Below, in pieces: positions 9,131-12,430 of a stretch of 12,492 bases of DNA. The DNA is from Christensenella sp. UBA3857 (lineage in GTDB: Bacteria > Bacillota > Clostridia > Christensenellales > CAG-138), in contig DGHD01000010.1 of NCBI GenBank assembly GCA_002392505.1, positions 13,830-26,321 on the forward strand, given 5' to 3'. Under the pieces are notes generated by a model, which saw nothing but the letters and a program-made list of their open reading frames with translations, searched no databases and was not told where the DNA came from. Every line of letters starts with the position of its first letter. Positions within the stretch are counted from its first letter, which is position 1. Made by a program: the position numbers and the translations under genes.

Positions 9131-9133
9131 GTA

Positions 9134-9472
9134 TCGAGCAAGCCGTAAGCCGAGTTCTGTTTATGTGACCATCTATCTTGGCAGCGCGTTGCCGCGCGGC
9201 TCCAGCGATTACGGGGAGCGTGACGGACAGCCATTAAATGCTCCCATTTCAATCTTGCTCCGGGTGGGGTTTACAGGGACGCGGCGCGTCTCCGCACCGC
9301 CGGTGGGCTCTTACCCCGCCTTTCCATCCTTACCGCATAATGCGGCGGTTTATTTCTGTTGCACTTTCCTTAAAGTCGCCTTCACCGGACGTTATCCGGC
9401 ACCCTTGTCCTGTGGAGCTCGGACTTTCCTCACAATCATTCAAAGGATTGCGCGGTCACTTGGCTTACTCGA
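9134..9472 (-). ncRNA. rnpB: RNase P RNA (class A-like)
   Basis: Catalytic RNA of RNase P, which matures the 5' ends of tRNAs, ~339 nt. On the minus strand it begins with P1 (GAGTAAGCC) and P2 (GTGACC), then a P3 hairpin (5-bp stem), then the universal GAGGAAAGTCCGAGCTC core (P4 5' strand). The specificity domain is recognisable by GTGCAACAG, AAACCGCC and GGTAAGAGC-like GGGTAAGAGCCC. Then come GTAAACCCCACCCGGAGCAAG, P16 (GGGAGC/GCTCCC), and the 3' end GGTCAC...ACAGAACTCGGCTTACGG closing P2, P4 and P1 (GGCTTGCTC). P1 pairs over 11 bp with one G-U. The GTAAACCCCACCCGGAGCAAG block is typical of class A rather than the Bacillus class B. The 3' side of L15 reads CGT, without the usual GGU. The gene follows the zinc-ribbon gene in the same direction, as in many Firmicutes. 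End positions are estimated from P1. Confidence 0.96.
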
Positions 9473-9474
9473 TC

Positions 9475-9480
9475 ATTTTA
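9475..9480 (-). promoter_or_regulatory. Possible -10 element of rnpB
   Basis: TAAAAT on the minus strand lies about 7 nt before the GAG that opens P1, the right distance for a -10. The sequence 16-18 bp further upstream has no good -35. The corresponding position in front of the partial second copy (GGAATT) does not look like a -10. Confidence 0.4.
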
Positions 9481-9518
9481 TTATTTTGAGAAAAACCTGT
9501 TTGCGTTCCTGTTTCCTA

Positions 9519-9636
9519 TCGCAGACGCTGCCGGGAATTGACTCGCAGGTGCGTTTTTCCGGTCTCGGTTTATCGCAGTATCGCGCCTGTCGCGGCGCTC
9601 CCGCGCTGACCCGCGCGGCTCCCTTTGGTCGCGATC
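9519..9636 (-). repeat. Intergenic repeat element, copy A (between the two rnpB 5' ends)
   Basis: The minus-strand segment 9579 to 9542 (beginning ACTGCGATAA, ending CCTGCGAG) aligns without gaps to plus-strand 12350-12387, with 30 of 38 positions identical. Flanking sequence (GGGAGCG...GCGAC...GGCG, about 9605-9585) also resembles 12322-12341. A second shared motif, CCGGCAGCGTCTGCGA (9534 to 9519), matches 12320-12335 at 15 of 16 but lies on the other side of the core in this copy. No coding frame is credible. Together with 9473-9518 it fills the 164-bp gap between rnpB and the duplicated rnpB end. Confidence 0.7.
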
Positions 9637-9699
9637 GGAGCTCGGACTTTCCTCACGGTAATTATCTCATACCGCGCGGTCACTTGGCTTACTCGATCA
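9637..9699 (-). pseudogene. Partial second copy of the rnpB 5' end (P1, P2, P3, P4 5' strand)
   Basis: Two blocks identical to rnpB, 19 nt (9637-9655 = 9414-9432) and 25 nt (9675-9699 = 9451-9475), flank a hairpin that differs: CGGTA/TACCG here against CAATC/GATTG in the gene. That hairpin is P3, so the copy holds the 5' strands of P1, P2 and P4 with a complete P3. After the GAGGAAAGTCCGAGCTCC core the sequence is unrelated to RNase P RNA, and no 3' partner strands follow except those of the intact gene. It is a truncated duplicate, not a second enzyme; paired changes in P3 suggest descent from a functional but diverged rnpB. Confidence 0.85.
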
Positions 9700-9720
9700 A
9701 TTCCTTTTTAGCTTTCCACC

Positions 9721-9772
9721 TCATCAGTCAGCCTCGCTTCGTTCGGCTGGCAGCTTCCCCTCAAGGGGAAGC
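9721..9772. repeat. REP-like intergenic double hairpin
   Basis: CAGCC (9729-9733) pairs with GGCTG (9745-9749). It is followed by a perfect 9-bp stem, GCTTCCCCT (9753-9761) with AGGGGAAGC (9764-9772). I recognise the CAGTCAGCC...CAGCTTCCCCTCAAGGGGAAGC type as a common dispersed element in gut Clostridia genomes; that is from memory, not a search. It sits 14 bp after the zinc-ribbon gene, without a T-tract on either side, so it is a poor intrinsic terminator. Confidence 0.65.
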
Positions 9773-12059: not shown

Positions 12060-12088
12060 ATAGTAACATAAGGAGAGGGATAAGTCAA
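12060..12088 (-). promoter_or_regulatory. Promoter of the trmK operon
   Basis: On the minus strand TTGACT (12088-12083) is followed after exactly 17 bp by TACTAT (12065-12060). An overlapping TATAAT lies just downstream (about 12061-12056), but its spacing from TTGACT would be 22 bp. Transcription should begin about 12053, only a dozen bases before the preferred trmK start. Confidence 0.65.
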
Positions 12089-12092
12089 GACA

Positions 12093-12210
12093 TTAGGACG
12101 CACAGGCGAGCAGCGCGAGAAGCACTCAAGTTTTTAGGACGCACGTTAAGCGAGCGAATGCGAGAAGCACACAAGTTATTAGGATGCACGCCAAGCGAGC
12201 AGCGCGAGCC
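12093..12210. repeat. Three imperfect tandem repeats of 41-45 bp
   Basis: TTAGGAYGCAC begins at 12093, 12134 and 12179. Each is followed by GCGAGC, a short spacer and GCGAG; the first two continue with AAGCAC and CAAGTT. Spacing (41 and 45 bp) and sequence vary, with no spacer/repeat division as in CRISPR. The third unit diverges after about 12208. No coding frame is evident. TTTTAGGACG also occurs at 8924-8933 after tatD. Confidence 0.7.
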
Positions 12211-12239
12211 CGCAAGGACGACGAGAAATGCATGCAAAT

Positions 12240-12430
12240 TTCGAGGAGTCCGGCGCCCGCGCCGCGAGAGCGAGAGCGTTAAAAATCGTAACGGTGTTAC
12301 GATTTTAGCGAGCGCCCCGCCGGGAGCGTCTGCGACCGGCGAGGGGGGAACTGCGATAACGCAACAACGGAAAACCGCTCCTGCGAGACATATCCGAGTT
12401 TGTATGCACGCTGTAACATCAGTGTTACGG
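12240..12430 (+). repeat. Structured intergenic repeat element, copy B
   Basis: Gene-free sequence with several inverted repeats: GGCGC-CC-GCGCC (about 12252-12263), an 11-bp stem (12282-12306), CGCCGG/CCGGCG (12318-12323 with 12336-12341), and CTGTAACA/TGTTACGG (12411-12418 with 12423-12430). The core at 12350-12387 matches copy A upstream of rnpB on the opposite strand (30 of 38). Density of pairing and recurrence point to a small dispersed element that forms structured DNA or RNA. I cannot assign it to a known family. Confidence 0.6.
12282..12306. terminator. Perfect 11-bp inverted repeat, terminator-like
   Basis: AAAATCGTAAC (12282-12292) and GTTACGATTTT (12296-12306) are exact reverse complements around a GGT loop. 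The four terminal A/T bases give a U-tract on both strands, so it could terminate transcription from either side. It is not adjacent to any gene end seen here and may simply be part of the repeat element. Confidence 0.5.

Follow-up and report, generated by a model that had tools for sequence, protein, structure and literature searches.

We analysed a 12,492-nt stretch of DNA from Christensenella sp. UBA3857 (contig DGHD01000010.1; hereafter, the window, meaning the whole stretch), in which the RNase P RNA gene rnpB is preceded by a second, truncated copy of its own 5' end. About 160 nt separate the two copies, and they contain the structured core of a dispersed element. The locus was compared with the genomes of the same genus (G000 to G012, of which G000 is that of the window and G005 is a sister) and with wider sets of genomes. 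The features of the locus are as follows.

9131..9471, minus strand: complete rnpB, class A RNase P RNA (RF00010), its body identical at 281 of 294 positions to rnpB of G005
9414..9475, minus strand: copy B, the intact rnpB 5' end (5' strands of P1, P2, P3 and P4), from the alignment to copy A
9472..9526, minus strand: tail that links the core to intact rnpB and shows no relation to the native upstream flank
9527..9634, minus strand: structured core of the dispersed element; match of covariance model R1 with E 2.5e-24 (G000:C16:23356-23463) and hidden Markov model (HMM) match at 9531-9633 with 80.1 bits
9637..9699, minus strand: copy A, the truncated and probably displaced rnpB 5' end, from the alignment to copy B; its upstream flank matches G005

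The rnpB gene and its duplicated 5' end

The covariance-model scan (cmscan) of the window yielded a single full class A RNase P RNA (9471..9131, 282.6 bits, E 5.4e-92, model positions 1-367 of 367), a full-length RF00010 match with both strands of P1-P4, and no second match at 9637-9699, where the 5' strands alone are present. Read on the minus strand, copy A consists of the 25-nt block TGATCGAGTAAGCCAAGTGACCGCG, the hairpin CGGTA-TGAGATAAT-TACCG and the 19-nt block TGAGGAAAGTCCGAGCTCC, and copy B has the identical 25-nt block, the hairpin CAATC-CTTTGAAT-GATTG and the identical 19-nt block. The 25 identical nucleotides represent the 5' strands of P1 and P2 and the 19 identical nucleotides that of P4, and the P3 hairpins between them (9656-9674 in copy A, 9433-9450 in copy B) differ in sequence and pair in both copies. 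The original prediction, made from the letters of the window, had described identical blocks around unlike but pairing P3 hairpins, had placed the upstream copy at 9637-9699 and the true 5' end from 9414, and had read copy A as a genuine P1-P2-P3-P4 5' segment of RNase P RNA. All of this is borne out, the local alignment of the copies scoring 76 against a maximum of 27 with shuffled right flanks. As a control, 600 positions were drawn at random from the fetched loci, avoiding spans that contained N or core-like words; seven of them reached a direct repeat score of at least 60, and all seven lay in two repeat-rich loci. RNA folding of the segment gave a z-score of -1.54, and a promoter scan found none.

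The search of relatives for the tandem arrangement gave a divided result, since the rnpB 5' end carries it in 5 of the 13 genus genomes (G000, G002, G004, G009 and G012) and lacks it in the other 8; outside the genus, the exact motif matched once in 44 of 138 other genomes, not at all in 94 and twice in none. Two features went beyond the original prediction, namely the conserved dispersed core between the copies and the native flank on copy A.

A dispersed core and the same layout at many gene ends

The ~105-nt structured core between the rnpB copies is a dispersed repeat. The covariance model, built from 15 copies including that of the window, matches 18 of 103 genomes of the family, namely 13 of 13 from the genus of the window and 5 from a second genus; the highest number of matches in a genome is at least 37 (these per-genome counts are lower bounds). 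Across the order, matches occur in 6 of 396 genomes and are confined to the same 2 of 142 genera. The exact core pattern is found in 11 of the 13 genus genomes, 43 times in one of them, at least two of the listed matches (L059 and L066) not being cores by sequence. An exact 22-mer of the core, searched against 84,980 species of GTDB, recovered 46 stretches, 45 of them in metagenome-assembled genomes (MAGs) of Clostridia, the titles of several of these pointing to the gut of sheep, goat or buffalo, and the remaining one in a Streptomyces; the same 22-mer had zero matches in IMG/VR. Both core hairpins contain pairs changed on both sides in the 15-row alignment, and the structure as drawn has a covariation score of 0.152, compared with 0.041 for shuffles and at most 0.060 when it is slid along the alignment. 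The longer helix drawn as closing the core has no compensatory change in these rows.

Known identities for the core were sought and rejected. An Rfam scan of eight core-bearing loci, with E up to 10, gave no core match at the gathering score and no group II match on the cores, which rejects a known RNA family. A phage or plasmid remnant is likewise rejected, as searches with positions 9401-9760 against 50,697 phage and 72,556 plasmid records gave no match.

To describe the settings of the core, we surveyed 101 non-redundant copies, chosen as best hits and not at random, of which 20 had too little flank. Among the 81 testable copies, 31 are flanked by long direct repeats, 7 by weak ones and 43 by none; the 31 of 81 compare with the 7 of 600 random positions of the control described above. 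Seven of the 31 (L130, two in L132, two in L134, L135 and L156) were judged by eye to have other kinds of repeats and were excluded, and the remaining 24 fall at 20 loci with gene-end repeats; further gene-end analyses also excluded L133, L204, L101, L103 and L173. Two extra loci, a metallophosphoesterase gene from the weak class and rnpB of G002, where the contig ends too soon, bring the number of loci with two gene-end copies flanking an insert to 22, and these cover 17 gene ends. Besides the rnpB 5' end, the 5'-end sites are those of genes that we take to be smpB and yebC, of grpE, of the metallophosphoesterase gene and of a LURP-one-related (LOR) gene, together with the leader before what is presumably rplK. 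The 3'-end sites are those of rnpB (in G009), greA, methylaspartate ammonia-lyase (the same site in two species), GcvP2, OTC, GGGtGRT, a phosphoenolpyruvate (PEP)-utilising enzyme that we take to be PPDK, a protein without a Pfam match that we presume to be aconitase-like, and two unnamed proteins.

The order is fixed at all loci, with the truncated gene end, the core, the tail and the intact gene following each other in one orientation. The truncated end abuts the 5' side of the core, and in all 21 loci whose contigs reach into the gene, the gene-internal sequence continues 3' of the core. The gene-end repeats are ~31-245 nt long. At the 3'-end loci, both copies keep the same terminator, with identity ending there, in 5 of 10 cases; identity ends in the terminator loop in one and near the stop codon in four, so that the outer edge of the repeat lies at a terminator in 6 of 10. 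No consensus at the inner break was found by eye. At smpB, LOR and methylaspartate ammonia-lyase, the intact copy is accompanied by new untranslated regions (UTRs), ribosome-binding site (RBS) spacers or terminators. Units are repeated in tandem at rnpB (G002 and G009), yebC, greA and grpE.

Single loci add further observations. In G009, rnpB (L041) has the element at both ends, and two further downstream units duplicate the 3' end including its terminator. The rplK leader is duplicated in G003 (L124), one hairpin being wholly different between the copies and pairing in both, and an Rfam scan of this leader gave no match.

Some core copies have terminal inverted repeats and are placed in rho-independent terminators. 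At L137 (two copies), L144 and L204 the element has on either side a copy of a 21-28 nt terminator hairpin, which is a different one at every site, and at L140 and L142 it separates the arms of a single terminator (arms identified by eye). The core occurs in such terminator insertions as well as in gene-end duplications, and is therefore a module of more than one kind of insertion.

The window holds a second core:

12327..12400, plus strand: second, partial core, HMM match with 28.8 bits and E 3.4e-07

No gene-end repeat was found to flank it (direct repeat score 16, shuffles 20). It lies upstream of trmK and is preceded by a run of TTAGGACGCAC-type repeats (window 12080-12400); the same type of run precedes other cores of the window genome (L129-L134).

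History of the two copies and explanations of the layout

The differences between copies bear the mark of constraint on both. Coding differences fall at codon positions 1, 2 and 3 as 3:6:34 (P=1e-9 against equal thirds), a count in which one of two greA comparisons was dropped, L069 was added and yebC is represented by two array units compared with each other; before that drop and addition the positions held 4, 7 and 33 differences, with 30 synonymous and 12 other codons. The RNA hairpins in rnpB and before rplK also differ between copies with pairing kept. Because the differences are skewed to codon position 3 and the hairpins are compensated, both copies evolved as working gene ends. Fresh slippage, which the original prediction had also discounted, is rejected as the whole account, since the copies differ in the manner of constrained genes.

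Comparison with G005 bears on which copy is native. At rnpB of G000, the flank outside copy A is identical to that of G005 at 593 of 600 positions, while the flank of the intact gene agrees with the G005 flank at 72 of 156, which is the chance level. At smpB, identity is 1180 of 1200 on the truncated side and 68 of 156 on the intact-gene side. Because its flank matches G005 while that of the intact gene does not, copy A sits, by this comparison, in the native flank, and at least its outer part is probably the displaced native end. G005 itself is without the element at rnpB and smpB and joins the outer part of copy A to an inner part like that of copy B. This mosaic is what a single crossover between the copies would yield, or else a target for one-crossover integration of the unit; the G005 contig ends just after the smpB repeat, the few coding differences at 1-2% divergence carry little weight, and the P3 of copy B resembles that of G005 without being the same. 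The original prediction had derived the upstream copy from a functional, diverged rnpB by recombination or conversion. Codon bias, compensated hairpins and the G005 mosaic suggest that recombination between functional, diverged gene ends does play a part; the proposed direction did not hold, as copy A has the native flank and the intact downstream gene the new one.

In G009 and G012 the P3 common to copies A and B is absent from the other genus genomes, and in G002 a single base of P3 distinguishes the two visible rnpB units, all of which argues for duplication within the lineage. The rnpB P3 turns over fast, 12 different sequences being present in the 12 genus genomes with the intact 5' end on a contig. 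A relic of the same kind, of old date, is found at smpB of G012 (L218, about 1493-1650), where a duplicate 5' end lies 132 nt upstream, across a short spacer with no recognisable core; it is frameshifted, so such relics decay.

We consider it probable, though well short of secure, that the core belongs to a short, structured, non-autonomous mobile element with long target duplications that are reshuffled by recombination, the upstream rnpB 5' end being one side of such a duplication. The element, which would have no reading frame of its own and would be moved by a factor supplied in trans, would join its 3' side to the edge of a transcription unit (a terminator, an RNA 5' end, or a point beside an RBS or stop codon) and its 5' side, at the core start, to a point ~30-245 nt inside the gene. 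The stretch between these joining points would be present on both sides, the outer copy being the displaced, truncated end, and the gene on the 3' side would stay complete because that stretch occurs twice. Insertion itself may create the long duplication, with its outer edge at a transcript boundary and its inner edge variable; later, homologous recombination, whether within the pair of ends or across strains, may excise, re-insert or multiply the unit and swap alleles.

Several observations weigh against this explanation. In the survey, 43 of the 81 testable copies have no long repeat and 7 a weak one, and the copies surveyed were best hits, not a random draw. Copies A and B often differ, chiefly at synonymous sites, a pattern that plain duplication and later decay of the truncated copy would not predict, and their P3 hairpins differ in G000 and G004. 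At yebC, the G005 contig begins a single base ahead of the ATG, and its first codons agree with copy A and not with copy B. No transposase or reverse transcriptase (RT) was seen adjoining the cores examined, by eye in lists of open reading frames (ORFs). 

The element is not a general Y1-transposase or TnpB element, Y1 being found in 5 of the 13 genus genomes and TnpB above the cut-off in 1, against the core in all 13. For large islands with a distant second gene end, which may still occur, the ORFs between paired cores in three loci resembled host genes, as judged by eye with no family search and not every core followed.

A different origin would be a cassette that brings its own gene end from another strain, gets into the recipient gene through recombination or a cut, and makes the gene whole with the foreign end while the native one stays behind as a relic, in the manner of the mORF elements of fungal mitochondria. 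The 3:6:34 distribution and the compensated hairpins, which mean that both copies evolved as working ends, speak for such a cassette, as do the new UTRs, RBS spacers or terminators brought by the intact copy and the existence of the fungal analogue (PMC3630166). We nevertheless regard it as a possible but rather doubtful account: in G009 and G012 the copies carry the P3 of their own lineage, the ~105-nt core holds no nuclease or integrase reading frame, and one core serves 17 different gene ends, so that the carried end would have to match each time. The original prediction had raised the idea that the upstream copy is retained for rnpB itself, as a decoy or switch competing for the 3' strands of the RNase P RNA. 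In favour of this, copy A matches the gene exactly in the P1, P2 and P4 strands and has kept a pairing P3. This function is nevertheless very unlikely: core and layout recur at 16 further gene ends, 5' and 3', mostly of protein genes, so that nothing specific to rnpB is needed; the eight genus genomes without the arrangement manage without it; and the old smpB duplicate in G012 is frameshifted. An assembly artefact of MAGs could be suspected, given that G000 is 53.5% complete and that the contigs of G002 and G004 end within ~100 nt past the second repeat copy. We give an artefact hardly any credence, since several genomes share the arrangement but not its sequences, and at all 17 gene ends the core stands in the middle and the orientation is unchanged.

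For the factor that would move the element, an RT of the UG26 group is a lead only. RT matches occur in 10 of the 13 genus genomes (L244-L258), with one close relative per genome and a second, different RT in G002; two were classified, both as RT_UG26 (566 and 559 bits), and the RT-5 RNA (RF03026) lies just upstream of the RT in three scanned loci. Close relatives (E below 1e-80) are present in 14 of the 18 family genomes that have the core and in 4 of the 85 that lack it. This co-occurrence could reflect shared ancestry, and a causal link is opposed by G003 and G012, which are 90-94% complete and have cores without an RT match, by the lack of a significant association among 11 g10 genomes (P=0.24) and by the absence of any core within four scanned RT loci. 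It is conceivable, if improbable, that the core is a bacterial short interspersed nuclear element (SINE). The UG26 RT beside its RT-5 RNA would insert the structured RNA by target-primed reverse transcription, with a first nick at transcript boundaries such as terminators and a second 30-245 nt into the gene. If so, long target duplications would keep essential genes intact, and recombination between copies would later remove the element cleanly.

Insertions in essential genes normally kill those genes. In the present case the ends of rnpB, smpB, yebC, grpE, greA and others harbour a tiny element, and the genes are nonetheless complete because two copies of the end exist. A duplication made at insertion would be far longer than those of classical transposons, and essential genes would then become safe homes for the element. 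Tandem, recombining gene ends can also mislead annotation and assembly, and the layout is a natural record of strain exchange in uncultured gut bacteria.

Comparison with known systems

In the literature on rnpB insertions, terminator miniature inverted-repeat transposable elements (MITEs), gene-end elements, rumen repeats and UG26, searched with subscription journals mostly outside its scope, so that we do not claim the core family to be unpublished, none of the titles listed describes it. Genomic islands and phages can integrate in gene ends and restore the gene, and they resemble the element described here in that the native end is displaced on one side and the gene restored on the other. 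They differ in that here there is no integrase or island, the insert measures a few hundred bases and one core is found at many unrelated genes.

Like MITEs and elements that target terminators, group IIC introns among them, the core is short, dispersed and without an ORF, and some of its copies have terminal inverted repeats, as read by eye, and are placed in terminator hairpins (L137, L144, L140 and L142). At the rnpB copy, by contrast, the search for terminal inverted repeats gave nothing above chance (a score of 16, with shuffles at 23), and there is the lack of an Rfam group II match noted above. The duplications also differ from the few-base target duplications of MITEs, measuring ~31-245 nt at gene ends and 21-28 nt for the terminator hairpins.

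There is also a likeness to the mORF elements of fungal mitochondria, for which PMC3630166 describes duplicated carboxy-terminal ends of atp6, atp9, cox2 and nad3. There, as here, a mobile insert lies in a gene end between two copies of that end, the gene is complete and the differences between copies are largely synonymous (PMC3630166). The mitochondrial insert consists of a homing endonuclease ORF several hundred bases long. In contrast, the rnpB-type element is bacterial, has a ~105-nt structured core without an ORF, leaves between the rnpB copies no endonuclease ORF, and is found at both 5' and 3' ends and also at an RNA gene.
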